From the NCBI RefSeq assembly GCF_000685155.1, contig NZ_JMIY01000004.1, positions 64,492 to 128,491 of the forward strand: a stretch of 64,000 nt of DNA, read 5' to 3'. The position numbers and the translations under genes are program-made. A model generated the notes under the pieces. The model did not search any database and was not told the origin of the DNA. It was given only the letters and a program-made list of their open reading frames with translations. The DNA is from Candidatus Methanoperedens nitratireducens (GTDB lineage Archaea; Halobacteriota; Methanosarcinia; Methanosarcinales; Methanoperedenaceae). The first letter of the stretch is position 1; every line of letters begins with the position of its first letter. Shown piece after piece: positions 268 to 14,511 of this stretch.

Positions 268-1149
268 TTATCCCATCAATCTAAGGAATATCTCCTCAAG
301 AGAGGGCTCAGCGGTTTTTACCCCGATTATCCTTCCGTTGTGCCCTGCTACCCAGCCCATGATCCTGTTAAGCTCCTCGATGTCATTTGTGCGTGCTGTG
401 AAATTCCCGTTGTTCTCAGTGGCATCAAAATCAAATGCTTCACTGGCGCTGAACTCGATTATATACTCGATAGCGCCGCACATTCTCTTGATCTCAGCTA
501 CAGTGCCGCATGCGATCTCTTTTCCCCTGTTCATTATCAATACCCGATCACACAGGCTTTCGACCTGGTACAGGTTATGCGCGCTGAACACGATTGTTTT
601 CCCTTTATTTTTAAGGTCGGCCACAAAGCCTGCCAGGTATTTTGAGGTTGTTGGGTCAAGGCCTGAGGTCATCTCATCCAGTACCAGGTATTCAGGATCA
701 TTTATCAGCGCCCTTGCGATCGCAACCTTGCGCTGCATTCCCTTGGACATCTCCCCTATCTTTTTATCAGGCGCATCAAGCCCAAGCTCATTAAGGATAT
801 GTTTTATCCTGTCTGATGCAGCGGCCTTCTCAACCCCGTAGATCTGCGCGAAAAACATCAGGTAATCATCTGCAGTCATTCCCTCATACAGGGGACTGTC
901 CTCTGGCAAAAAACCAAGCCTTTGCTTGATCCATTGTACATCCTTTTTTATATCCATTCCCTGTACTGTTATATTCCCCCGTGTCGGGGTTATAAGCCCG
1001 CTTAACATTTTAAGGGTGGTTGTCTTACCTGCGCCGTTTGGTCCCACGATACCGAAGATCTCCCCTTTTTTAATCTCAAAATTAAGAGAATCAACTGCTG
1101 TGAAATCATCATATTCTTTACCCAGGTCGCTGACAATTATCTCATTCAT
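268..1149 (-). CDS. ABC transporter ATP-binding protein (NatA/CcmA-like)
   Basis: A cytoplasmic ATPase of 293 residues that would power ABC-2 type permeases. It has a Walker A (GPNGAGKTT, about residue 36), a degenerate signature (EMSKGMQRK), a Walker B (YLVLDEMTSGLDP) and the switch His in SAHN. The C-terminal 70 residues match the accessory tail of NatA/CcmA-type exporters. It is transcribed away from the two permease genes that start at 1187 and 2937, only 37 bases apart from the first. They probably form one transporter, because no other ATPase adjoins those permeases. The substrate is unknown. Confidence 0.85.
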   Translation of the reverse strand: MNEIIVSDLGKEYDDFTAVDSLNFEIKKGEIFGIVGPNGAGKTTTLKMLSGLITPTRGNITVQGMDIKKDVQWIKQRLGFLPEDSPLYEGMTADDYLMFFAQIYGVEKAAASDRIKHILNELGLDAPDKKIGEMSKGMQRKVAIARALINDPEYLVLDEMTSGLDPTTSKYLAGFVADLKNKGKTIVFSAHNLYQVESLCDRVLIMNRGKEIACGTVAEIKRMCGAIEYIIEFSASEAFDFDATENNGNFTARTNDIEELNRIMGWVAGHNGRIIGVKTAEPSLEEIFLRLMG

Positions 1150-1186
1150 GCAAACTATTATTTAATCCTGAAGTAATATAAATGCG

Positions 1187-2944
1187 ATGGGTCTATTAAC
1201 GATCTCAAAATTGGAACTGAGAAGAACAAGGTTGAGCTTCGGTCAGAGGATCCCTGTTTTTTCAATCCTGCTTATAATCCTGATAGGACTGGTCTCTTTC
1301 TTTGTATCCCAGTATGGTTTCCATATAAATGATAATATCTACAGGGTGGCTGTCACAGACCCCGGTCTGGCAGCAGTCCTTAATACGGATGATAAATTCC
1401 AGGTCTATATCGCAAACGAACAGGAAGCAAAAGAACTGTTCGAATACGGGGGGTTTGATATTCTGATAACTGGTAATAATGTCCGCTATCACATCTCTGA
1501 GAAATCGATATCAGCCCTCGATGCCCTGGACAGGGCCGTCCAGAGATACGATGAAGCCAGGCTGTTAGCTTATAATGACCTGAATAATACCTTTCCTGTA
1601 TGGATAACTGTGAAACATATTGCAAGGGAACAGACATTCCAGGCTCCATCCATCCAGAGGCTGCCTGATCTTGAAGCTGCACAGCAGACAGCCGCATCTA
1701 CTGCAGAAAAGCCCGTGGAAACAACCAGAGAAACACATACAAAAGGAGAAGTACCGTCTCCCTCCATCCTTGAGGTTACAAAGACAGATAGAGGTCTGCC
1801 GATAAGAGATAAAGCTCTTGCAACTCCCTCACACCTCAATCCTTCTCTTCCATTCGGATCTGTGGTAATGAGTTTTTTATTTATATTCCCTATATATTTT
1901 ATAGCACAGTTTTATTCAGCAAGTATTATGGAAGAGAGAGTAAGGAGAAGGGGTGAACTTCTACTTGTATCGCCTGTAAAATCCTATGAGATCGTACTTG
2001 GCAAGCTCATTCCATATCTCCTGATCACACTTGTACTGATGGGCGGTATAACCATCTACATAGGAGGGAATATACTGGTGCCGGCTATTCTGTTACCTGT
2101 TGCCCTTATGTTCCTCTCAACCGCTTTTCTCGGTGCGGTTATATCCAGGAGCTTCAAGGAACTTACGTTCATCCTTGTCTTCCTGTCGGTTATTCTCTCA
2201 GGCTATATTTTCCTTCCTGCTATGTTCGCCAATATCCATGCTATCAGCGTCATCTCCCCGATATCTCTTGTGGTAAAGCTTCTTGAAGGCGAATCTATCT
2301 CTATAACCGAATATGTATTCTCGACTACACCCTTCTACCTGGTATCTTTTCTGATCCTGATGTTCGGTATTTTCATCTATAGAGAAGAGGATCTATTTAC
2401 CCAAAAATCTATTAAAAATAAACTGCTGGACTCAATACAGGTATTTATCGAGCGCATCCCGGCTCCGTTTTTCTTCTTGAGTATTGTACTGCTCCCGATC
2501 GCATATTCATTCCAGCTTATTCTGATTGTACTGATGTTCAATCTTCCCATACGCTATGGGATCGTGATCTTCATATTCATGGCTGCATTCATCGAAGAAG
2601 TGATCAAATCAGCCGGGATATATACTGTTTTCTCAAGAAAAATATCCAGCATTACTACAGGCAACGCTTTAAGATTCGGGATCTATGCAGGAACTGGTTT
2701 TTTTATAGGTGAGAAGCTTCTATTACTGGTTGTTATAACCAGCATAGCAGGTTCTGTCTTCGGTTCTGCAATGGGTATCGGTCTTCTTATATTCCCGTTC
2801 GTCTTGCATATAACAGGTGCGATCATCTCCTCGCTGGGTATGAGGTATCTTGGAGTCGGGAATTACCCGGCTTCTGTGATACTGGCATCCATTGTCCATT
2901 CAGCATACAATCTCTATATTGTCAGGGGGGTGCTGTTTGGGTAG
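1187..2944 (+). CDS. ABC-2 permease fused to a PrsW-like intramembrane protease domain
   Basis: 585 residues. Residues 1-400 are an ABC-2 exporter permease: one TM near 25-45, a long outside loop to about 225, then TMs around the typical cytoplasmic turn MEERVRRRGELLLVSP. Residues about 415-585 form a second multi-TM block with the residue pattern of PrsW/CPBP-type membrane metalloproteases: FIEEVIK, GFFIGEK, FVLHITG and IVHSAYNL, supplying the expected Glu-Glu, Glu, His and His/Asn. Permease/CPBP fusions are known in bacteria, and the PrsW-like version here is read from the motif spacing. The ATG at 1187 lies 37 bp from the divergent ATPase start. The next permease overlaps its end. Confidence 0.8.
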   Translation: MGLLTISKLELRRTRLSFGQRIPVFSILLIILIGLVSFFVSQYGFHINDNIYRVAVTDPGLAAVLNTDDKFQVYIANEQEAKELFEYGGFDILITGNNVRYHISEKSISALDALDRAVQRYDEARLLAYNDLNNTFPVWITVKHIAREQTFQAPSIQRLPDLEAAQQTAASTAEKPVETTRETHTKGEVPSPSILEVTKTDRGLPIRDKALATPSHLNPSLPFGSVVMSFLFIFPIYFIAQFYSASIMEERVRRRGELLLVSPVKSYEIVLGKLIPYLLITLVLMGGITIYIGGNILVPAILLPVALMFLSTAFLGAVISRSFKELTFILVFLSVILSGYIFLPAMFANIHAISVISPISLVVKLLEGESISITEYVFSTTPFYLVSFLILMFGIFIYREEDLFTQKSIKNKLLDSIQVFIERIPAPFFFLSIVLLPIAYSFQLILIVLMFNLPIRYGIVIFIFMAAFIEEVIKSAGIYTVFSRKISSITTGNALRFGIYAGTGFFIGEKLLLLVVITSIAGSVFGSAMGIGLLIFPFVLHITGAIISSLGMRYLGVGNYPASVILASIVHSAYNLYIVRGVLFG

Positions 2945-3992
2945 TTCTGGTAATACCCTGGTTATAACTAAAAAGGAGATGCGCTCATTGCTCAATGAGA
3001 AGACCCTTATCCTTGCTGTTATCATCCAGTTGATGATTGCATCTTTTTCATCCCTGCTTGTGATCGGCCTTTCCTCTTTCTTTGACCCTTCAGCCCTGGA
3101 TCGGTACGATATAGACAGGGTAAAAGTTGGAATTATTGGGGAAGGAGAATTAAAACGGTTCATCGAAAAAAGCAAGGTAAAGCCGTACTATTATGAAGAC
3201 CTTGATTCTGCACTCCTGGATTTTAACAATAACAGGATAGATGCGGTTCTTGTGTTCCCGACTTCAGAATCCAGCAGTAATGAGATCATCCAGATCCTGC
3301 TTTATCTGCCAAAATCAGATATAAAGGGCACTTTTGTCACCCTGCAACTGAAAAAACCCCTTGAGGAGTTTGAAGCCTTTGTCAGGGATGTAAGAGGCCC
3401 GAGGATCGGCTTTGAGCCAGTAAGGTTATATGTTGATGAGGCTCCCAAAAAAACCTCAACATACTTTGAGTTCATTTACGGGATACTTATTCCCCTTCTC
3501 GTCCTCACACCGGTTTTTATCTCCGGCAGCATGGTTATAGATATGCTCACAGAGGAATATGAGCGCAGGACGATGGAACTCTTGCTTGTCTCCCCACTGT
3601 CTTTTTCAGAGATATTGAACGGCAAGATGCTCGCAGCCGTGCTCCTTGTCCCTGCGCAGGTGTTTTTATGGCTTGTACTTGTAAGCCTGAGCGGTATTGA
3701 GGTGAATAATATAGGGATCATATTATTATTAACAACCGCAGTCTCTGTTATTATTATCCTTATCGGTGCCGTTATCGCTGTTAGATATAAGGAGAGGGTG
3801 ATCTCTCAGTACCTGTATTCCCTTATCCTTATACTGCTGTTCATGGCAGGGTACCTTTTTGCTGACTCCCCTTTTAATCTGATAACCAGGCTGTCATCAG
3901 GTGCTGCAGGCGCAGAAGCGCTTATTTACTGCGGGGTATATGCTGCTGTGGCAGTTCCGCTGTATGCTCACGTGACATCCTCCCTACCCTGA
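2937..3992 (+). CDS. ABC-2 permease with its 3' end replaced by a TnpB element
   Basis: A second ABC-2 permease, 351 residues as it stands. It has an N-terminal TM, an outside loop, and a TM bundle beginning near IPLLVLTPVFISG with the cytoplasmic turn EEYERRTMELLLVSP. The best start is TTG 2937, overlapping the upstream stop by eight bases and preceded by AGGGGGG; the longer ATG start at 2892 would lie inside the neighbour. After codon 345 (His, 3969-3971) the frame enters the right end of an inserted element and reads VTSSLP then stop. Joining 3971 to 5430 restores a natural basic tail (VKLWQESLMARKAL then TAG at 5472-5474). Loss of this cytoplasmic tail may or may not abolish function. Confidence 0.8.
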   Translation: MGSSGNTLVITKKEMRSLLNEKTLILAVIIQLMIASFSSLLVIGLSSFFDPSALDRYDIDRVKVGIIGEGELKRFIEKSKVKPYYYEDLDSALLDFNNNRIDAVLVFPTSESSSNEIIQILLYLPKSDIKGTFVTLQLKKPLEEFEAFVRDVRGPRIGFEPVRLYVDEAPKKTSTYFEFIYGILIPLLVLTPVFISGSMVIDMLTEEYERRTMELLLVSPLSFSEILNGKMLAAVLLVPAQVFLWLVLVSLSGIEVNNIGIILLLTTAVSVIIILIGAVIAVRYKERVISQYLYSLILILLFMAGYLFADSPFNLITRLSSGAAGAEALIYCGVYAAVAVPLYAHVTSSLP

Positions 3993-4060
3993 AGGGTTAG
4001 GGCTTCCTGCTTCATCGAGTGTCCATTGGCTGCTCTCCACAGGCGTTAATCAACTGTCAC
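3972..4060 (-). ncRNA. Predicted omega (re)RNA covering the right end of the TnpB element
   Basis: In TnpB systems the guide RNA scaffold comes from the 3' part of tnpB and the right end, and the guide is the flanking DNA just outside. Here the right end contains the stem at 3982-4002. The bases outside on the element's strand, starting GTGAGCATAC, would be the guide. This guide exactly matches the rebuilt empty site next to TTTAC. The 5' limit of the RNA cannot be read from sequence. Confidence 0.45.
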
Positions 4061-5249
4061 GCCAGTTGATTGCGTATCCACGTATTGCTTCGCAATACGT
4101 GTCTGCGTTCTCAAGGGGCGCAACCCTTGATTCCCCACAGTCCGTAGGTACTGTATCTATTTTTGATTTGTTTCCTATTAGTATTGCAGAAACGTGATCC
4201 CTTCCAATCACAAGACCACAGTTCGGACATGAATGTATCCGTACACAGAGGTCTTTAGGCACCTGGTATCCGCATATGCAAACTTGTGATGTGTTTTTAG
4301 GATTAACCAGTTCAACTATCTTCCCAGCGTGCTCTGCTTTGGATTTTGTCAAGCTGATCAATTGATACCATCCAGCATCTGAGATTGACTTTGCAAGATG
4401 ATGGTTCGCAAGCATGTTCTGGATCTGCAAGTCCTCAAACACTATATGGTCGTATGTATTGACAAGCCATCTGCCTGTCTTATGAGCAAAATCTTTCCTC
4501 TGGTTCCTGATCTTCCTGTGTACCTTAGCTACTTTGATCCTCTGCTTGTTCCTGTTCTTTGAACCCAATTTCTTTGTGCTCAGTTGTACTTGTTCCCAGG
4601 CAAGCTTTATTTCTGATTTTCGGAAGTATTTTGGGGGCTCTATCTGCTTTCCATTGCTTAACGTGAGCAGTGATCTCAGACCAACGTCAATACCTATCTT
4701 TGTTTCCACAGGCACTTTTTCTATCTTCTTTTCGATTTCTACTGTAAATACAGCATACCACTGATCTACGTCTTTCTTGATAGTGCAGGTCTTGATCTTG
4801 CCTTCCATCTCCCTGTGCTGGAATATTCGTACAGTCCCTATTTTAGATAGCTTAAGATCGTTGTCTTTAAGCTCAAAACCTGATTGAGGATACGTGAACG
4901 TGTTATACCTGTTCCTTCCTTTGAACCTTGGATACCCAAAGCCATTATAGAAATTCTTAAAACTTCGATCAAGTCTCTTCAACGTGTTCTGAAGTACCTG
5001 TGAGTGTACTTCTTTCTGGAAATCAGTTTTTGATGATGCTAATTCGTTAGCCTGGTATTCGTATGAAATCCATTCAGGTTTGCCCCAGGGAAATACCTCT
5101 AACTCCCGTTTTAACCTGTTAAGCTCTGCCTGTTTCCTTCTTTCTGCAAGGGCATCGTTATAGAGATGCCTACAGGTGTTAAGCGTTCTGTTTAGCTTGA
5201 CCTCCTGATTCTTGTTTGGATAGATACGGAAACTATAGGCTTTTTTCAT
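4050..5249 (-). CDS. tnpB: TnpB RNA-guided nuclease of the IS605 family
   Basis: 399 residues, the usual TnpB length. The N-terminal helix-turn-helix segment begins MKKAYSFRIYPNKNQE. RuvC motif I is KIGIDVGLRS (Asp near 195), motif II is HIVFEDLQIQNM (Glu) and motif III is GRDHVSAILIG (Asp). The zinc-ribbon reads VCICG and then SCPNCG, so the first knuckle is C-x-C rather than the usual C-x2-C, a possible weakening. TnpB proteins use an RNA made from the element's right end to cut DNA next to the TAM, which favours retention of the element. Activity here is inferred. Confidence 0.92.
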   Translation of the reverse strand: MKKAYSFRIYPNKNQEVKLNRTLNTCRHLYNDALAERRKQAELNRLKRELEVFPWGKPEWISYEYQANELASSKTDFQKEVHSQVLQNTLKRLDRSFKNFYNGFGYPRFKGRNRYNTFTYPQSGFELKDNDLKLSKIGTVRIFQHREMEGKIKTCTIKKDVDQWYAVFTVEIEKKIEKVPVETKIGIDVGLRSLLTLSNGKQIEPPKYFRKSEIKLAWEQVQLSTKKLGSKNRNKQRIKVAKVHRKIRNQRKDFAHKTGRWLVNTYDHIVFEDLQIQNMLANHHLAKSISDAGWYQLISLTKSKAEHAGKIVELVNPKNTSQVCICGYQVPKDLCVRIHSCPNCGLVIGRDHVSAILIGNKSKIDTVPTDCGESRVAPLENADTYCEAIRGYAINWRDS

Positions 5250-5429: not shown

Positions 5430-5474
5430 GTAAAGCTATGGCAGGAGAGTTTGATGGCCAGAAAAGCTTTATAG
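5430..5474 (+). pseudogene. Displaced 3' end of the interrupted ABC permease gene
   Basis: Fifteen codons including the stop (GTA AAG at 5430 to TAG at 5472-5474). They continue the permease frame of 2937-3971 exactly when the TnpB element is removed. The encoded VKLWQESLMARKAL is a basic, amphipathic cytoplasmic tail of the kind that ends ABC-2 permeases. In the present arrangement it has no start and is not translated as part of the permease. Confidence 0.75.
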
Positions 5475-5506
5475 AATAAGCGTATGATAATGGTAATAGT
5501 GATTAT

Positions 5507-5995
5507 GTGAAAAGCGACAGTGCACAGATAACTATAGATTACGTTACAGGGATGGGCATATTTCTTCTCTCTGTTGCCTTTGTATTCCAGTTCATGTATA
5601 GTCTCTTCATTCCATTTCAATCGAGTTCGGATGAGGTCACACTTGCTGCTGACAGGGCAAGCACAGTACTGGTCGAGCGCCTGCTCGCTGCTGATAGATC
5701 CGGTGCGGTGAACGTAATAGACCGGGAGAAGCTGTACTACTTCAATAACACAAAACTAAACCATTCTAACGAGATTGGCTATAAAAATGCGCTTCGTGAG
5801 CTTGGATTATTCAGCAATGAGATCATCTTTGATATGAATATGTCAGTCGCATATCTTAATGGCACTATAATGAACCAGAGCGGCCCTGAACTCCCTGAGA
5901 ATACTGATATAGGCAAGACCAGACGCCTTGTATTGATTGTAAATTCCTCTACAGGCTATAATGAGACGGCTGTCATCTCAGTGAGGGTATGGTAA
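5507..5995 (+). CDS. Pilin-like membrane-anchored protein (DUF7287-like)
   Basis: 162 residues starting at GTG 5507. The N-terminus (KSDSAQITIDYVTGMGIFLL then a TM to residue 32) has the short polar leader followed by a hydrophobic helix seen in class III-signal (archaellin/pilin) proteins, with the rest outside. It resembles haloarchaeal DUF7287 proteins, whose helix begins with a TTIDY-like motif; this is recalled, not searched. It is first of six similar genes joined by overlaps such as TAATG, implying one operon. Function is unknown; a surface filament or envelope complex is a reasonable guess. Confidence 0.75.
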   Translation: MKSDSAQITIDYVTGMGIFLLSVAFVFQFMYSLFIPFQSSSDEVTLAADRASTVLVERLLAADRSGAVNVIDREKLYYFNNTKLNHSNEIGYKNALRELGLFSNEIIFDMNMSVAYLNGTIMNQSGPELPENTDIGKTRRLVLIVNSSTGYNETAVISVRVW

Positions 5996-6600
5996 TGTTC
6001 GATGAAAAAGCCCAGTTGCATACGCTTGAAGGTGTGGCGGCAGCGGTAATCATACTTCTTGTAATAATATATGCCATCGATGCAACCTCGATGACGCCTC
6101 TTACCGCTTCAACCGCAAGTGTGCATGTAGAGACTGAGCTTCGTGCACTGGGACAGGATATTTTAAATACCCTGGATTATGCAGAGCCAGGACACACCTC
6201 AAAACTAAAGAATGATATATTAGCATGGAATGGCAGTGTATATACCTGGAGCGGCTCTAATTACACAGTCAGGATTGGTACCGATAATCTCAACAACAAC
6301 CTGACAGAAATCTTCAGGGATACGCTGGTCGAACAGGGCATTGCCCACAGTGTGGAGCTGACTTTTATTGATAACAGTACGCTCATACCTTATACAGTGA
6401 ATATGATATACAACGGTGACCCCTCAAACAACGCTGTGGTGGTCTCCAGAAAATTCATATTACAAAACATCGGTCCCATAGATGGAGAAGATAGACCTGA
6501 AGGAGATAGCATAGATACACACAATCCTATAAAGGACATTGATCCTTCAACCAACCTGTATAATATAGTTGATATCAGGCTTATTCTGTGGAGGATGTGA
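5995..6600 (+). CDS. Pilin-like membrane-anchored protein (DUF7288-like)
   Basis: 201 residues from ATG 5995. That start sits 7 bases after GAGGG and overlaps the upstream stop as TAATG, so it is preferred to ATG 5989, which is only one base from the SD. The N-terminus DEKAQLHTLEGVAAAVIILL is very like haloarchaeal DUF7288 proteins (leader ending AHTLEG, then TM, then an outside segment with PLTAST). The remainder is extracytoplasmic with several N-x-S/T sites. Second gene of the pilin-like operon, coupled to the next gene by a TGATG overlap. Confidence 0.75.
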   Translation: MFDEKAQLHTLEGVAAAVIILLVIIYAIDATSMTPLTASTASVHVETELRALGQDILNTLDYAEPGHTSKLKNDILAWNGSVYTWSGSNYTVRIGTDNLNNNLTEIFRDTLVEQGIAHSVELTFIDNSTLIPYTVNMIYNGDPSNNAVVVSRKFILQNIGPIDGEDRPEGDSIDTHNPIKDIDPSTNLYNIVDIRLILWRM

Positions 6601-7433
6601 TGGGGATAATAGAGAACCGGGACGCTCAGTTCATGCTGCTGGCAGGCTTTATTATCGCTATTGGCCTGGTGATAACCACGGTGCTGCTTAACAGCGTGAT
6701 ATTCGAGGGCAATATGGCAATCGGGGCAGGAACAGAGCCTTCAAAAATCGGGATAATCAACCTTATGGAGATTACCAGGGACGAGACCAGGAGCGCATAC
6801 AGGAACGCAACTGCGCCCGGGACTGATTATACACTCAGGTTTACCAATTTCAGCAATCAAATGCAGAACTTCAGTACGAACCTGTCCAAGATCTATGCGC
6901 TGCATGGAGAGGGGATTAACGTGAGCTGGGATGTGAGCAACTGGGAGAACAGTCTTTTCGCTAATTTCACCGAGAATGGAACTGCAAGCGGCGCGGTTGA
7001 TTGGACAGTGGTGGAAGGCGTACGAAATACTACAGCTTTTGAGCTTAGAAGAATCAATGTAAGTGCGGGAGGGTATTTTATTATCAACGTAACCAACAGT
7101 TCAGCAAGCGTGTGGTCTATGAATTTTACAGGAGGTAACCAGATAAATGTCACCAATAAAACTGGTGGAATCTCTAATTACACTGACGATTATAACTACA
7201 TAAACATTTTAGATTCAACATACGAATTCAATAGTAGCACCCTCAATGAAATATATAATATAAATTTCGTTAGAGGTAATGAGGCATGGGGACAATTCAC
7301 CATTAAAGGGAACCATACAATATACAATAAGAAATTCATCCGCTCAAGAGATTATATCCTTAATGCAACAGCAGTGCTTTATACCAGCAGGATGCGAGCC
7401 AATATAACGATCCCTGTTTCTGTGCCGTGGTGA
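6600..7433 (+). CDS. Pilin-like membrane-anchored protein (DUF7261-like)
   Basis: 277 residues from ATG 6600, six bases after GGAGG and overlapping the previous stop (TGATG). A short leader (MGIIENRDAQFMLLAG) precedes one TM at about residues 13-35. The outside domain is rich in N-x-S/T (for example NCT-free stretches with NFS, NLS, NVS, NVT), fitting an N-glycosylated surface protein. The DAQF-L-A leader resembles haloarchaeal DUF7261 proteins. Third gene of the operon. Confidence 0.7.
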   Translation: MGIIENRDAQFMLLAGFIIAIGLVITTVLLNSVIFEGNMAIGAGTEPSKIGIINLMEITRDETRSAYRNATAPGTDYTLRFTNFSNQMQNFSTNLSKIYALHGEGINVSWDVSNWENSLFANFTENGTASGAVDWTVVEGVRNTTAFELRRINVSAGGYFIINVTNSSASVWSMNFTGGNQINVTNKTGGISNYTDDYNYINILDSTYEFNSSTLNEIYNINFVRGNEAWGQFTIKGNHTIYNKKFIRSRDYILNATAVLYTSRMRANITIPVSVPW

Positions 7434-7437
7434 TGTT

Positions 7438-7914
7438 ATGAATTCTAAAGACCTGTTTAAAAATAATGATGCAGTATCCATCTCAGTAGGCTTTATACTG
7501 ATGTTTGCAGTTACTGTGCTTATATTCTCTGCTACTATTCTCTCTTTTTATACACTCTCACAGCAGTCTGAAAAAGCAGCCATGAGGGAAAGTTTTAGAA
7601 CCATGGGGAGCGGGCTTGCCGTAAAAATAACCATGGTCGATACACTGGCCAGCGTAATCAATTCCTACGGAGGTACGGTGAATACCCTGGAATATGAGTT
7701 CTCAGCTCCTGCTTCCGTAGCAGATAAGAGCTATACCGTGAATATCACCGGCCCAACCCAGGAGATTATTATGGAATCGGATAATGGCGTCAGAATAGTA
7801 GCTCCCTTCAATACCTCCACCAGTTTTACCGGGATAAAAATATACAGCGGAGCTGTGGATTATGTACTTAAATACGATAGATCCAGCAATAGCCTTAACA
7901 TAGAAGAACAATGA
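7438..7914 (+). CDS. Pilin-like protein (DUF7266/7289-like)
   Basis: 158 residues. The leader MNSKDLFKNNDAVSISVGFI ends in a conserved-looking DAVS-x-x-VG before a TM helix, as in archaeal type IV pilin N-terminal domains. The rest is a predicted beta-rich extracellular domain. The ATG at 7438 follows the previous stop by four bases with GGTGATG just upstream. Fourth gene of the cluster and the last before an internal promoter. Confidence 0.7.
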   Translation: MNSKDLFKNNDAVSISVGFILMFAVTVLIFSATILSFYTLSQQSEKAAMRESFRTMGSGLAVKITMVDTLASVINSYGGTVNTLEYEFSAPASVADKSYTVNITGPTQEIIMESDNGVRIVAPFNTSTSFTGIKIYSGAVDYVLKYDRSSNSLNIEEQ

Positions 7915-7944
7915 GCTTGATCCATCATGATAATAATGACAGGC

Positions 7945-7952
7945 TTTAAATA
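7945..7952 (+). promoter_or_regulatory. Archaeal TATA box giving a probable leaderless transcript
   Basis: TTTAAATA lies 26-33 bases before GTG 7978. Archaeal transcription starts about 25 bases downstream of such a box, so the message would begin at or just before that GTG. This supports the GTG as a leaderless start and marks a second transcript inside the pilin-like cluster. Confidence 0.6.
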
Positions 7953-7977
7953 CTATGCAATACAATGTATTTTATAG

Positions 7978-8790
7978 GTGATTCCCATAAAAAACTTCTT
8001 TAATATGAAGCGGTTCCTGGAATCCGGGGAGGCAGTGACAGAAGTAATGGACTTCATTACAATCGTTGGAATCCTCATTCTTTCTTTCAGTCTTATAGGA
8101 CTCGCAGGATATCCTATACTGGAGAGTGCCCAGAAGACAAGGTACACAGAGAATACAAGGCAGAGCTTTGTTGTGCTTGCTGATAATATCAATAAGGTAG
8201 CGCTCGGACAGGCGCCTTCCCAGAGTGCAGAGCTCAAGATGTACGGAGGGACGCTTGGGGTTGTAAGGGTTAGCACGATCCAGATCAATGGGACTGTATT
8301 CAATGAGACCAGCTATAGCAATGAGAGTCTAACAGTTGACCTGCCGATGTACAGCATTGAAAACTCCATAGGAGATAATGTAGTTGCATACGAGGGTACA
8401 GGAGTATGGGTAAAATATCCGACAGGTACCGTATTGAATGCTTACAAGCCGCTTATTACCAATATGAGCGATGTGCTGATCATACCTGTCGTATATATAA
8501 CCGGGAAATCAGCAATATCCGGCAGCGGTATGAGCAGGGTGACTGTATGCCAGCAGGAGCTTCCAACAGAAGAGGGCGGATGCGGGATGCCAAGTGTTAC
8601 CATCTTTAGAAATGTGAGCAATATCACTGTAACGATCACTGGAGATTACTCAGAGGGATGGCGGGATTATTTCATAAACACAATGAAGTGGAGCTACGAC
8701 CCCGGCGAGACATATACTGCAAAATTAAATACCGCTAAAAATCTGGATCTTTATATAGTGCAATCAAGGATTTACACGGTGATAACATGA
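7978..8790 (+). CDS. Pilin-like membrane-anchored protein (DUF7289-like)
   Basis: 270 residues. The N-terminus has GEAVTEVMDFITIVGILILS, a polar leader followed by a TM helix, resembling DUF7289/archaellin-like proteins. A motif GG-x-LGVVRVS and a beta-rich outside domain follow. GTG 7978 is chosen because of the TATA box at the right distance; the internal ATG at 8005 has no RBS and would still keep the leader. The next gene, which overlaps by ATGA, is a longer paralogue sharing the pattern VAYEGxGVW-KYP. Confidence 0.72.
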   Translation: MIPIKNFFNMKRFLESGEAVTEVMDFITIVGILILSFSLIGLAGYPILESAQKTRYTENTRQSFVVLADNINKVALGQAPSQSAELKMYGGTLGVVRVSTIQINGTVFNETSYSNESLTVDLPMYSIENSIGDNVVAYEGTGVWVKYPTGTVLNAYKPLITNMSDVLIIPVVYITGKSAISGSGMSRVTVCQQELPTEEGGCGMPSVTIFRNVSNITVTITGDYSEGWRDYFINTMKWSYDPGETYTAKLNTAKNLDLYIVQSRIYTVIT

Positions 8791-10223
8791 AATTCCTGAG
8801 ATCAGAAAAAGCAGCCTCAGAGGTTATAGGCCATGTTATCATATTAGGCCTGACTATTACAGGAGTAGCCCTGATAGCGCTGATCGGCGTACCTTCAATT
8901 TTCAGCCTGCAGGATATGGCAAATATCAGGAATGCGGAGCAAGCCTTCACGGTGCTGGATTCCCGCGCAAGCATCGCGTTGCTCGGTGAGTCTCCGATGC
9001 AGGTTGTGGATATAAACCTTGGTGGAGGCACTCTGGCAGTTAAACCTAACGGAACAGGCAGGGAGAGCTATATGATAATAGGACGTGAGAACGAAGGTGA
9101 TACTATTATAATACCTATGGGGAAGATGGAATACCGCCTCGGGGACAGGATAGTGGCATACGAGGGAGGAGGGGTCTGGTCAAAATATCCCTCAGGCGGC
9201 TCGGTCATGCTCTCACCTCCGGAATTTCACTATAACGGCAGGACGCTGACACTCCCAGCAATCAATATAGCCGGGGATGCCGCTATCGGAGGAAAAGGAG
9301 CGGCAGCAGTTTACTTAAAGAAAAACGGAACTAAGGTAATATTCCCTGATCCTTACCAGGGCACAAACAGGACAAACCCGATAAATTCCAGCATAAGTGG
9401 AACGATCTATGTGAATGTTACAAGCGACTTCTACGATGCATGGGCTGATTATGCCAGAAGTCTATTATATACCAAGGTCAGAACTGATGAAAATAACCGT
9501 ACAGCCAGCATAGAACTTACGGTTGTTCCTTCAGGTTTTGGAGCAAGCACAGATATAACCTATCCGGTCAGTTTCAGGGGGCTTCCGGATACTGGCGCGC
9601 CGCTGGATAACTTCAGTTTCAGGATTTATAATAATAATAATTTTAATAATTTTAACTGGGACATCCGTGCAAAAACCGGGAATAGGATATTAATATTCTA
9701 TATAAAAAAGAACCCACCAAATCGCGTAGAACTCATGGTTGGTTACCAAGATAATGATAATATTATTAATCCTAGTGATGGTGAGACATGGGGAGGGGCT
9801 AATTTTTATATACAAACTGATGCGAAGGGAAGTTATATTGATGTGGATTTACTGGACATAAGTAGGAACCTTACCTATCAAAATGAAAATGTCGGATCTA
9901 CTAATGCCAATTTATGCCAGCAGCCTGTTAGTGGGACAGTTAGAGGTATTCGCACTACGGCTGATTCTTGGAGCAATATTTACATAAACACTAGTAATGC
10001 AAATAAGACACAGTCTATCTATAATGTAACCCAGCACTACATCAGGAAAATGGCGGAAGGCGGGGATATATTCTTTTTTAAGTGTGCGCCTGCTGTCAAT
10101 AACGAGCAGAACCAGAATAATGAACCTGCGGATGACTCCAGCGTGCTCGTGGACTACAACCCCGTAGGTGCCATCACTTTCCTTTATATCTCAGATAATA
10201 AGGCAGATGTGACTGCCGGTTGA
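8787..10223 (+). CDS. Large pilin-like surface protein (DUF7289-like)
   Basis: 478 residues. A short leader (MKFLRSEKAASEVIGHVIIL) and one TM are followed by an outside region paralogous to the preceding gene: both have LGGGTLAV/YGGTLGVV, VAYEGGGVWSKYP and a DFYDAWADY/DYSEGWRDY block. The C-terminal 200 residues are Asn-rich and unique to this protein. It is likely the tip or major structural member of whatever the cluster makes. Start ATG 8787 overlaps the previous stop by four bases. Confidence 0.72.
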   Translation: MKFLRSEKAASEVIGHVIILGLTITGVALIALIGVPSIFSLQDMANIRNAEQAFTVLDSRASIALLGESPMQVVDINLGGGTLAVKPNGTGRESYMIIGRENEGDTIIIPMGKMEYRLGDRIVAYEGGGVWSKYPSGGSVMLSPPEFHYNGRTLTLPAINIAGDAAIGGKGAAAVYLKKNGTKVIFPDPYQGTNRTNPINSSISGTIYVNVTSDFYDAWADYARSLLYTKVRTDENNRTASIELTVVPSGFGASTDITYPVSFRGLPDTGAPLDNFSFRIYNNNNFNNFNWDIRAKTGNRILIFYIKKNPPNRVELMVGYQDNDNIINPSDGETWGGANFYIQTDAKGSYIDVDLLDISRNLTYQNENVGSTNANLCQQPVSGTVRGIRTTADSWSNIYINTSNANKTQSIYNVTQHYIRKMAEGGDIFFFKCAPAVNNEQNQNNEPADDSSVLVDYNPVGAITFLYISDNKADVTAG

Positions 10224-10413: not shown

Positions 10414-11679
10414 ATGAATAGATATGCAGGTATCGTAACTGCAATAATCGTCATGGGCATGTTTGTCTTCGCCGGGATAAGCAGCACATCTGGCCAGGTT
10501 ATAGAAGCGCCAGAGAAGATAATCAGCGTCCCTCCCATGCCTGCGGGAGATATGCAGGCAGGCAATTTCACAAAGCTTGAGATATCACCCCGCTACGGCA
10601 ATTTCAGGCTGCAGCCGGGGGAAAGCAAGGAAATGACGATCACCATCAGGAACAGGGAGAAAAAAACGGTAAGTATTAAACCCGATGTCGTTATACAGCC
10701 TTATGGCGAGTATATGATCGAGAAAGAGTGGATAACAGTAACGCCGGACAGCGCTGATATAGGGGCGGAAGACAGCCAGAAGTTCACGGTAAAAGCATCG
10801 ATCCCGAAGGATGCATCCATAGGATACTACAGCGCCCAGATCGCTTTTACAGATGAGGTAATACCTGTGCCCTATCCGCAGCCATTTCCCAGTTATGTCC
10901 ATTCATTCGGCCTTTCAATCGATGTCTGGGCTCCACCTAAAATCCAGATAATGTCACCTTATATAAATGACCAGCTTGAGGCCGGGAAGGAATCTGATTA
11001 CGAGATAAAACTAAAGAACACAGGGGATAAGGATATAGGCATAAGCCCCAGGATAGGGAGCGATATGGGCTATATGGGACCATACGGTAGAGTAAGCACT
11101 CTAACTGATGATGCCATAACTATAACTGCGCCAAAGAATGTTCCGGCCGGTGCGGTCGAGGTAGTAAAGATACACGTTAAAGTGCCTGCAGATGTTAAAG
11201 GCTATTATAACGGCTATATTGATCTTGGTATAGACGATCCCTCGGTTAGAGAATGGGAAGGAAGGGTACAGCTCAGCTTCAATATATGGAAGCAGCCAGT
11301 CGATCCTTTTGTAAAGAGCTTCAACCTGAAAGAAGCTGCACCCACAACCATAGAGATCAGCTCAAACTTCTTCGGGATGTACCCATGGGGTCCATGGAAT
11401 CAGGGGACAAAAACCGCAAAAGAACCATCTTTTGAAACCTCACTTGAGGGCGCGGATGGTAAAGCCGAGCTAAAAGTCGTAAAGACCGTGATAAAAGGCA
11501 GTGTGAGCATGGGGAGCGAGATTCCTCCATGGGAAATTGAGAGCACGGGTATATACCAGGAGATGGGAACACAGTATATAGAGACATACTCTGCTGATAT
11601 TCCTGCAGGTGAATGGAAACTGAAGGTGCTGCCCAGGAACACGGACCGGTTTGAGTACACTATAACGATAGGAGGGTGA
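10414..11679 (+). CDS. Exported protein with repeated Ig-like (NEW3/COG1470-type) domains
   Basis: 421 residues with a signal peptide (TM about residues 5-25, small residues then GQVIE). Two beta-sandwich blocks follow with the pattern seen in NEW3/COG1470 proteins: LQPGESKEMTITIRN near residue 68 and KESDYEIKLKNTGDKDIG near 190. There is no C-terminal anchor. The start follows AGGAGGT. It follows the pilin-like cluster but has its own promoter, so a role at the cell surface is likely while the partner is unknown. Confidence 0.7.
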   Translation: MNRYAGIVTAIIVMGMFVFAGISSTSGQVIEAPEKIISVPPMPAGDMQAGNFTKLEISPRYGNFRLQPGESKEMTITIRNREKKTVSIKPDVVIQPYGEYMIEKEWITVTPDSADIGAEDSQKFTVKASIPKDASIGYYSAQIAFTDEVIPVPYPQPFPSYVHSFGLSIDVWAPPKIQIMSPYINDQLEAGKESDYEIKLKNTGDKDIGISPRIGSDMGYMGPYGRVSTLTDDAITITAPKNVPAGAVEVVKIHVKVPADVKGYYNGYIDLGIDDPSVREWEGRVQLSFNIWKQPVDPFVKSFNLKEAAPTTIEISSNFFGMYPWGPWNQGTKTAKEPSFETSLEGADGKAELKVVKTVIKGSVSMGSEIPPWEIESTGIYQEMGTQYIETYSADIPAGEWKLKVLPRNTDRFEYTITIGG

Positions 11680-11722
11680 TCCCTCTTTTTTATTTTTTAT
11701 AAAAGATAAAGGTCGCTGGATC

Positions 11723-12298
11723 ATGGATACAAAGATAAAACTCGTAACCGGATCTATTGTTCTGATATTAATCCTCAGTATCGGGCTCAGCTTAAACCAG
11801 GGGCAGCCTGATGTAAGGCCTTCATGGGTGCACCAGGTAGAGTGGTCAGATAAGCCAGATGATGCCGCAAAGATAGAGGAACTGCTGTGGGCAGAAATAA
11901 TCCCTTATAGAACGGAATATGAGATTGTAAATATAAGCGCAAAAAGAGAGAAAGAGGATATGCGCCTGAGGATAATAGCCCGTACAAAAGACTCGGATAG
12001 CCCTGATATCTACGATTTTGTGTATGATGAGAAAAGACTGCTGCTGACAGGCTATCTCCTTGAAGCAGTATCGCCAGTTTACAGGAACGAGGCAATCGGC
12101 ATTGCGCTCGGGAACCAGGAAGTAGCAGCCTCAGTTGCGAACGCTGGCGCTCCGACTGTAAGACGCATCCTGCCGGGGACATCTGAGAAATTCTATGCGC
12201 CAAAAATGCTGTTGAGCGTGACATGGAGAGGGACTTCTGCATTGATCGATCCGGATGAGAGAAAAGTGGTGGACGTCTGGAAAGAGAGCGTAAATTGA
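11723..12298 (+). CDS. Membrane-anchored protein of unknown function
   Basis: 191 residues: one N-terminal TM (residues 6-24) and a mixed alpha/beta domain outside. I do not recognise the family. Its stop codon TGA (12296-12298) falls inside the first bases of a sequence block that is repeated at 17304, so insertion of that block may have set the present C-terminus. It follows the 10414 gene by 43 bases and may share its transcript. Confidence 0.6.
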   Translation: MDTKIKLVTGSIVLILILSIGLSLNQGQPDVRPSWVHQVEWSDKPDDAAKIEELLWAEIIPYRTEYEIVNISAKREKEDMRLRIIARTKDSDSPDIYDFVYDEKRLLLTGYLLEAVSPVYRNEAIGIALGNQEVAASVANAGAPTVRRILPGTSEKFYAPKMLLSVTWRGTSALIDPDERKVVDVWKESVN

Positions 12299-12438
12299 GC
12301 TATTATACTAAATATGCCTCTCTATAAAAAGGGAAAACTGTTGAGCAAGCTTAGGTATAGCTTTATGGTTCATAATTTTTGGAGAGGGAATCATTAAATG
12401 GTTTAGAATATTAATAGGTGTACCGATTCCTGATTAGA
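12294..12438 (+). pseudogene. Internally deleted copy of the membrane-protein gene at 17324
   Basis: These 145 bases match 17304-17840 from end to end except for a few substitutions and one 392-base deletion. The length difference is exactly 392, so no other indel exists. The deletion joins two TTA triplets (17361-17363 and 17753-17755 in the intact copy). Because 392 is not divisible by three the remaining frame shifts and stops early. Both copies begin with ATTGAGCTATTATA and end with CCGATTCCTGATTAGA, then the flanks diverge abruptly. Confidence 0.85.
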
Positions 12439-12452
12439 CGAGAGGATTGAAG

Positions 12453-13358
12453 ATGGCGGTTGAGATCTCACATATATCAAAATCATTTAACGGGCAATCT
12501 GTAGTTAAGGACATATCTTTTGATATTGCACCGGGCGAGGTGTTCGGCCTGATAGGGCCGAATGGAGCAGGGAAAACCAGTATAATACGCATGCTGCTTG
12601 ATATAATAAGACCTGATTCAGGCAGGATCAGAATCCTGGATGGCTCACCTGAGGGAATAAAGGACAGGATAGGCTATCTTCCTGAGGAGAGGGGGCTGTA
12701 TCGAAGGCTGACAGTTATGGATACTCTCATGTATCTTGGCGCATTGAAGAACAGACAGAACAGAGAGAGCAGAGAGAGAACACTTGAACTTCTTGAGAAG
12801 ATGGATATGCTCTTGCATAAGGATAAGAGGATCTCTGAGCTTAGCAAGGGCATGCAGCAGAAAATCCAGCTCATTGCCGCGATAGGCCACAACCCTGAAC
12901 TCATAATCCTTGATGAGCCTTTCTCAGGCCTTGACCCTTTAAACATGAAACTTGTAAAAGACCTGATACTTGAACTTGGCAGAGAGGGAAAAACCATACT
13001 GATCAGTACGCATATGATGGACCAGGTTGAGCGAATGTGCGACAGGATATTCATGATAAACAGGGGAAGCGGGGTCTTATACGGCAGCGTTGGAGAGATA
13101 AAATCCAGGTACGGGAAAAACACCATTTTCCTCGAGTTCGAAGGGGAGCTCAAGAACATAAAAGGTGTTAAAAAAATCAATCACTCAGGCAAGTATGCAG
13201 AATTGGTTCTTGACGCAGGCGCAGATGCCCAGGATGTGTTAAAGAACATAGTGAGCGAGGTGAGGGTAAGCAGATTCGAGCTTTCTGCGCCTTCCCTGAA
13301 TGAGATATTCATAGAGGTGGTGGAACATGATAAAGTGGATCACAATAGCAAAACATGA
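12453..13358 (+). CDS. ABC transporter ATP-binding protein (NatA-like)
   Basis: 301 residues from ATG 12453, seven bases after GAGG; the upstream TTG at 12447 is less well placed. Walker A is GPNGAGKTS (near residue 38), the signature is LSKGMQQK, Walker B is LIILDEPFSGLDP and the switch His is in STHMMDQ. The C-terminal accessory tail fits sodium- or drug-export type NatA proteins. Its stop lies 32 bases inside the next gene, a permease, so they form one two-gene exporter. Substrate unknown. Confidence 0.88.
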   Translation: MAVEISHISKSFNGQSVVKDISFDIAPGEVFGLIGPNGAGKTSIIRMLLDIIRPDSGRIRILDGSPEGIKDRIGYLPEERGLYRRLTVMDTLMYLGALKNRQNRESRERTLELLEKMDMLLHKDKRISELSKGMQQKIQLIAAIGHNPELIILDEPFSGLDPLNMKLVKDLILELGREGKTILISTHMMDQVERMCDRIFMINRGSGVLYGSVGEIKSRYGKNTIFLEFEGELKNIKGVKKINHSGKYAELVLDAGADAQDVLKNIVSEVRVSRFELSAPSLNEIFIEVVEHDKVDHNSKT

Positions 13359-14511
13359 ATACGTATACAATATACGCAGGAAAGAATTTCTCTTTGTAAC
13401 TTTTGGGCTGCCGTTATTTATTCTGGCGATCATGGGACTGCCAGTGCTTTTAGCGGGCAGCAGCGCAAGCCCTGAAGAATACATGATAGGCTATGTGGAT
13501 AGAACAGATCTGTTTGATTCTGTGAATTTCATTAAATACACGGATGAAGGACTTGCAAAAAAAGACCTGCTGGACGGCAGGATTACCCACTTCTTTGTCA
13601 TACCGGCGGATTACACTGTGACCGGGAAGATTGATATCTTTTCGGCAAAAAAGGGATTTCTGGGATCAATGGCAGTTGAGAGTCAGATAAAAGGCTTCCT
13701 GCTGGATAATCTGCTGAAAACTGAGACAAAAGAGATAGTGGAAAGGGCAAAGAATCCGATTAACAGCGAATATTTCACGCTCAATGATAGGGGAGAGAGC
13801 ACTGATGCAGGGTTATCCGCATTCCTGATCTCTATAGCATTCGCAGTTTTTTTCATGCTCTCCATCTTCTCCTCATCGAATTTTCTCCTGCAGGGCGTTG
13901 TAGAAGAAAAAGAGAGCAGGGTTATGGAGATCCTGCTGTCATCGATCTCGTATCGGGATCTGCTCATAGGCAAGATATTTGGACTTGGAGCAGTCGGCCT
14001 GACCCAGATACTTATATGGTTTATTATAGGAATGGTGCTGATGTCCTCAAATCCGATATCTCTTGCATCTCTGCTTGGCAGGGTACATATCTCTATCCCG
14101 CTGTTGATGTTTGCTATCGGCTATTTTATACTGGGATACCTCGTCTTTGCAAGCATAATGGCAGGCATCGGGGCAGTTGCAACGACTTCAAGAGAAGGAC
14201 AGCAGATAGCAGGGATATTTTCGATAACAGGTGCTATACCATTAATAATCTCTCAATTCATTATCGCAAATCCCAATGCAGTTCTCGCAAAAGCGCTCAG
14301 TTTCTTTCCACTGACCTCTCCAATTACAATTGTAATGAGACTATCCCTGGCACAGGTGCAGTTCTATGAGATTATTATCAGCACTCTGGTATTGATGGCT
14401 TCGATTCTTATTATAATAGAGTTGTCTGTCAGGATATTCAGGGCGAGCCTTTTGATGTACGGGAAAAAACCAGCTATCAAAGAGGTGGTGAAATATTTGC
14501 ATGAGGGGTAA
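13327..14511 (+). CDS. ABC-2 type permease (NatB-like)
   Basis: 394 residues. One TM near residues 18-38, a large outside loop of about 130 residues, then five or more TMs starting near ISIAFAVFFMLSIFS, with the family turn VEEKESRVMEILLSS. The start ATG 13327 overlaps the ATPase gene and follows GAGGTGG, indicating translational coupling. Together the two proteins would make a homodimeric or heterodimeric ABC exporter in the membrane. Confidence 0.85.
   Translation: MIKWITIAKHEYVYNIRRKEFLFVTFGLPLFILAIMGLPVLLAGSSASPEEYMIGYVDRTDLFDSVNFIKYTDEGLAKKDLLDGRITHFFVIPADYTVTGKIDIFSAKKGFLGSMAVESQIKGFLLDNLLKTETKEIVERAKNPINSEYFTLNDRGESTDAGLSAFLISIAFAVFFMLSIFSSSNFLLQGVVEEKESRVMEILLSSISYRDLLIGKIFGLGAVGLTQILIWFIIGMVLMSSNPISLASLLGRVHISIPLLMFAIGYFILGYLVFASIMAGIGAVATTSREGQQIAGIFSITGAIPLIISQFIIANPNAVLAKALSFFPLTSPITIVMRLSLAQVQFYEIIISTLVLMASILIIIELSVRIFRASLLMYGKKPAIKEVVKYLHEG

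Follow-up and report, generated by a model that had tools for sequence, protein, structure and literature searches.

The six genes at positions 5507 to 10223 of the window (the whole 64-kb stretch of Candidatus Methanoperedens DNA that was analysed) are best explained as a conserved set of pilin genes, a cassette, for a type IV pilus of the euryarchaeal clade 2 type, with the motor supplied in trans, most likely by a pair of genes elsewhere in the genome that encode a 990-aa PilB (PilB990) and a 657-aa TadC (TadC657). We give this reading a probability of about 0.7. It draws on the homology of the products and their class III leaders, on conserved gene order and purifying selection, on motor and peptidase genes found in the same genome, and on the co-occurrence of cassette and motor across genomes. 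The system type was already described by Makarova et al. in 2016 (PMC4858521), and the families are already in Pfam.

Six genes with pilin-like leaders

The first-pass annotation had reported a cluster of six genes, each product starting with a short leader and one hydrophobic helix. All six open reading frames were found where it had placed them, on one strand, and the features of the locus are as follows (a slash in a leader precedes position +1).

5468..5475, + strand: putative TATA-like box TTTATAGA, 32 nt 5' of gene 1, from sequence reading
5507..5995, + strand: gene 1, DUF7287 pilin-like, 162 aa, GTG start; PF23958 E=4.5e-33, full length; leader MKSDSA/QITID (Q at +1, D at +5)
5989..6600, + strand: gene 2, DUF7288 pilin-like, 203 aa; PF23959 E=5.3e-46; leader DEKA/QLHTLE
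6588..7433, + strand: gene 3, DUF7261-related pilin-like, 281 aa, GTG start; PF23922 E=0.002, under cut-off; 19 N-glycosylation sequons in the product
7438..7914, + strand: gene 4, DUF7266-related pilin-like, 158 aa; PF23928 E=1.2e-5, under cut-off; PilA-like leader DA/VSISVGFIL
7945..7952, + strand: putative TATA-like box TTTAAATA, 26 nt 5' of gene 5, from sequence reading
7978..8790, + strand: gene 5, DUF7289 pilin-like, 270 aa, GTG start, with an in-frame ATG at 8005 as alternative start; PF23960 E=2.2e-21
8787..10223, + strand: gene 6, long DUF7289 + DUF7308 pilin-like, 478 aa; PF23960 E=3.3e-23, PF23985 E=8.1e-13

A class III signal peptide, by the rule of PMC4371748, is a short leader with a small residue at -1 and a charged residue at -2, immediately followed by a single hydrophobic helix. 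All six products have one hydrophobic segment, which begins at residue 8-17, and the same one-segment N-terminal profile occurs in just 1 other among 63 non-overlapping window ORFs of at least 100 aa. Genes 2, 4, 5, and 6 pass a strict (FlaFind-like) pattern plus H-domain, as do 2 among the other 100 window ORFs of at least 100 aa, while gene 1 (S-A-Q-I) and gene 3 (D-A-Q-F) each miss the pattern by one residue.

Overlapping starts and stops had been described for five of the genes. Genes 1 and 2 do share 7 nt, genes 2 and 3 share 13 nt, and genes 5 and 6 share 4 nt, but junctions 3/4 and 4/5 are gaps of 4 and 63 nt. The larger gap holds the TATA-like box at 7945..7952, which may give genes 5-6 a promoter of their own and make them a second transcription unit. 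Sigma-70 promoter and terminator scans were set aside as inapplicable to archaeal promoters. Genes 1-4 are under purifying selection (dN/dS 0.08-0.27 between relatives).

Family identity and predicted structure

The first-pass annotation had likened the leaders to the haloarchaeal DUF7287/7288/7261/7266/7289 set and suggested a profile search. That search returned the families in order, with two under the cut-off when genes were searched singly: the curated Pfam cut-off was exceeded for DUF7287, DUF7288, and DUF7289 (+DUF7308) and missed for DUF7261 (18.8 vs 27 bits) and DUF7266 (25.5 vs 27.6 bits). Orthologue matches and hhalign bear out the likeness for the last two. DUF7261 is matched by 27/28 gene 3 orthologues, and gene 3 aligns over nearly its full length with the haloarchaeal set at the same position (hhalign E=2.3e-22), as gene 4 does with the haloarchaeal DUF7266 set (E=4.4e-21). 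Homology of gene 3 to DUF7261 and of gene 4 to DUF7266 is thus supported at the level of sequence profiles. An NCBIfam search of the cluster gave chance matches only, and a text search of papers for DUF7287 found no mention.

The AlphaFold model of gene 2 (pLDDT 87.7) has two helices (residues 6-34 and 37-63) and a small beta domain at the C terminus; that of gene 6 (pLDDT 85.8) has a 60-residue N-terminal helix followed by beta-rich domains. Both models combine a long N-terminal helix with a C-terminal beta-rich head, a layout expected of archaeal type IV pilins. Fold searches of the same two models against the PDB returned no significant solved structure.

Distribution and gene order

DUF7288 is present in 32/34 genomes of the family and in 262/394 sampled genomes of the phylum, motor-linked loci included. 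The order DUF7287-DUF7288-DUF7261-DUF7266-DUF7289-long DUF7289 is shared by Methanoperedens, Methanolobus, Methanococcoides, Methanohalophilus, and other lineages, at loci from which PilB and TadC are absent. It had been proposed that the arrangement is common to several archaeal lineages and that gene order in other Methanosarcinales should be checked; the order is indeed kept in Methanoperedens, Methanosarcinaceae, and other Halobacteriota.

In haloarchaeal-type families, PilB-TadC is directly followed by the first five members, DUF7287-DUF7288-DUF7261-DUF7266-DUF7289 (four loci serve as examples), and in Natrarchaeobius chitinivorans the first five genes likewise lie directly behind PilB-TadC. 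This linkage places the set in the known euryarchaeal type IV pilus family. G188 is the one non-haloarchaeal genome with a linked motor: a TadC/PilB pair and the complete six-gene cassette are convergent there. In some haloarchaea, the pilin set is present a second time, and no PilB/TadC adjoins that copy (two loci).

Several variants of the cassette were seen. Eleven loci have a five-gene version (DUF7287 of ~320 aa, DUF7288 of ~172, DUF7261 of ~152, an unassigned 147-aa gene, and DUF7289 of ~245), which frequently forms a tandem with the six-gene cassette. In family f38, the five-gene cassette contains a giant DUF7288 member of ~1,470-1,560 aa (three loci). Genes 3 and 4 are enlarged to ~500-600 aa at six loci, at one of which gene 4 (~600 aa) carries Big_7 Ig-like domains, and gene 3 reaches ~790 aa at three others; gene 3 orthologues elsewhere are about 550-790 aa.

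Assembly genes elsewhere in the genome

The first-pass annotation had noted that no ATPase, platform protein, or peptidase gene is present. This is correct locally, i.e., neither a PilB ATPase, a TadC platform, nor a peptidase is encoded near the cassette in the 64-kb window, but the same genome has a peptidase gene and three PilB/TadC pairs, all outside the cassette locus (C2 and C7 are contigs):

C2:~200,000-205,000: PilB of 990 aa and TadC of 657 aa; a MinD-type ATPase adjoins, with no pilins
C2:267-270.6 kb: PilB of 551 aa and TadC of 643 aa, with pilins of their own (DUF7289, DUF7266, and a DUF7288-type 639-aa protein)
C7:~612-616 kb: archaellum PilB/TadC pair

The prepilin peptidase search gave one match in the genome, at C2:517977. 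There are also four Pilin_N-type pilin genes, with stand-alone PilA-type pilins on C7, C8, and C9. Since motor and peptidase genes exist elsewhere in the genome, this is a cassette encoded apart from its motor and not one that lacks a motor.

Which motor serves the cassette

Among 108 good genomes of the order, we scored PilB990 orthologues at a threshold of E<1e-200 and the cassette by the presence of DUF7288. Both were present in 71 genomes, the cassette only in 2, the motor only in 4, and neither in 31 (Fisher p=2e-20, in a table compiled by hand from two outputs, with kinship ignored and related genomes non-independent). Dropping 25 genomes of two genera (g9 and g10, presumably Methanosarcina), both of which are without motor and cassette, gives p=1.4e-5. 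Of the four 'motor only' genomes, two are from f38, the family in which the giant-DUF7288 cassette was read. Within family f3, motor and cassette covary inside genera (6/1/2/8, p=0.015, kinship ignored). The cassette-linked PilB of G188 is 58% identical to PilB990 and is that genome's best PilB990 match.

A tree of 61 PilB ATPases places the linked haloarchaeal PilBs in their own long-branched clade (100/100), and the relation of this clade to PilB990 is weakly supported; the tree does not make the two sisters, so the pairing was probably not simply inherited. This is in line with the view, already published, that motor modules evolve independently of pilin sets (PMC4858521). In one genome (G210), the cassette is present but a PilB990 orthologue is not, so a different motor can serve it. 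Assembly in trans has a precedent in Haloferax PilB3-C3 (PMC4858521, PMC6491452), which, when supplied in trans, corrects the defective adhesion of a strain deleted for pilB1-C1 (PMC6491452). The likeliest motor for the cassette is the pilin-less PilB990/TadC657 pair on C2.

FlaD/E and other neighbouring genes

In 6/14 Methanosarcinaceae stretches, as in Methanococcoides alaskense and M. vulcani, the gene immediately 5' of the cassette encodes a FlaD/E-domain protein and has the same orientation, and neighbouring coordinates of FlaD/E-domain and cassette genes were found in further genomes. Eight loci are of this type. The product is 463-1056 aa long with a C-terminal Arch_fla_DE domain (PF04659); no Arch_fla_DE gene is beside the cassette in the window locus or in the Methanolobus loci. 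That M. burtonii has a displaced flaD copy was pointed out in 2007, outside the context of the cassette (PMC1914349). One tentative and rather doubtful reading is that the Methanosarcinales cassette pilus has an archaellum-like cytosolic collar, in which a displaced FlaD/E scaffold would dock to the PilB990-type motor and so couple the pilus to switch/positioning machinery; if so, it would be a possible pilus-archaellum intermediate.

Other neighbours vary. Four Methanoperedens cassettes adjoin a TPR-repeat protein gene (~743 aa) and then one for a KaiC/DUF7125-like protein. In the window, the cassette has an ABC exporter module on either side, at 268-3992 and 12447-14511, each made up of an ABC ATPase and ABC-2 permeases. 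We rejected the upstream ABC-2 genes as cassette parts, since they adjoin only ~1/3 of Methanoperedens cassettes, as well as the genes at 10414-14511, since the proteins at 10414 and 11723 are beside no other cassette. An intact-looking TnpB-type ORF (4050-5249, - strand), by its sequence a putative IS605-family accessory nuclease, separates gene 1 from the upstream ABC-2 permease gene.

Proposed mechanism and its meaning

Each of the six products would be a prepilin that is exported and then cut before its hydrophobic helix, probably by the peptidase encoded at C2:517977. The mature pilins are predicted to pack via this helix into a filament, with the motor supplied in trans, most likely by the PilB(990 aa)-TadC(657 aa) operon. 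The families are mostly single-copy, their order is fixed, and elsewhere big extra domains occur only in members 2, 3, and 4, which suggests minor or tip pilins: the cassette members may start and cap the fibre and bear an adhesive tip. The fibre shaft would then come from the stand-alone PilA-type pilins.

Methanoperedens oxidises methane with external electron acceptors or partners, and surface fibres matter to it for attachment. More generally, archaeal pilin sets and motors often lie in separate loci, and for most predicted pilins no partner is therefore known. The co-occurrence links a widespread orphan cassette to one motor family, and five or six DUF families would gain a function from the pairing. 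We regard as new the cassette-PilB990 pairing, the FlaD/E gene 5' of the cassette, and the giant forms that single cassette genes take in particular lineages. None of these was found in the literature searched; the pairing and the FlaD/E gene may be partly contained in the supplementary tables of the 2016 census.

Alternative explanations

The cassette might instead be assembled by the other complete type IV pilus system of this genome, that of the 551-aa PilB and 643-aa TadC, in place of its own pilins or in addition to them. The locus of that motor has related pilins of its own (DUF7289, DUF7266, and DUF7288-type), so its motor handles such families, and pilin sets can be common to several motors (PMC4858521, PMC6491452). 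However, having dedicated pilins already sets it apart from PilB990/TadC657, which has none adjoining, and it was for PilB990, the motor tested, that co-occurrence with the cassette was found. We consider this assignment unlikely. The first-pass annotation had raised a different idea, an undescribed envelope assembly, in which pilin-like proteins would be membrane anchors that never polymerise. The window has no motor gene, and the cassette stays intact without a linked motor in many lineages, as such a complex would allow. Against it stand the direct linkage of the cassette to PilB-TadC in haloarchaea and in G188, the prior description of such systems by Makarova et al. 2016 (PMC4858521), the assembly genes elsewhere in this genome, and the co-occurrence with PilB990; we find this idea very improbable.

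The product could also be a short pseudopilus (secretion-type or wall-spanning, possibly archaellum-associated) instead of a long extracellular pilus. Several distinct subunits and a cassette without a clear major pilin would fit this, as would the FlaD/E-domain gene directly 5' in several Methanosarcinaceae and the KaiC-like gene two genes away in four Methanoperedens loci. The genome has stand-alone PilA-type pilins, however, and the FlaD/E link is missing in the window and Methanolobus loci. To our knowledge, these cells have no outer membrane that would require a secretin, which counts further against a pseudopilus, and we judge it distinctly improbable.

Comparison with known systems

Makarova et al. 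2016 described euryarchaeal type IV pilus systems in which pilins and motors are encoded apart (PMC4858521). In that source, the PilB4 locus type of Haloferax volcanii (clade 2, Fig. 4B) likewise has several distinct class III pilins, and its set includes a duplicated signature pilin of variable length (arCOG02911, ~250-550 aa), whose counterpart here is probably the DUF7289 pair. We infer that arCOG02911 is DUF7289 and that the linked haloarchaeal ATPases are PilB4. The pilin order of the haloarchaeal loci is the same as in the cassette; the cassette locus differs from the PilB4 type in being without PilB/TadC and in that a second DUF7289 gene, the long one with DUF7308, continues the series in the same orientation.

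Two further Haloferax systems invite comparison. PilB3-PilC3 with PilA1-6 is likewise a pilin-less motor operon with pilins elsewhere (PMC4858521; PMC6491452), but PilA1-6 are stand-alone genes, whereas the pilins here form an ordered six-gene cassette. The PilB1-PilC1 operon (clade 4C) has clade 2 family pilins beside its motor, which PilB3-C3 can replace in trans (PMC6491452). Its ATPase is of crenarchaeal type and its motor is linked, whereas the cassette described here is split from its motor.
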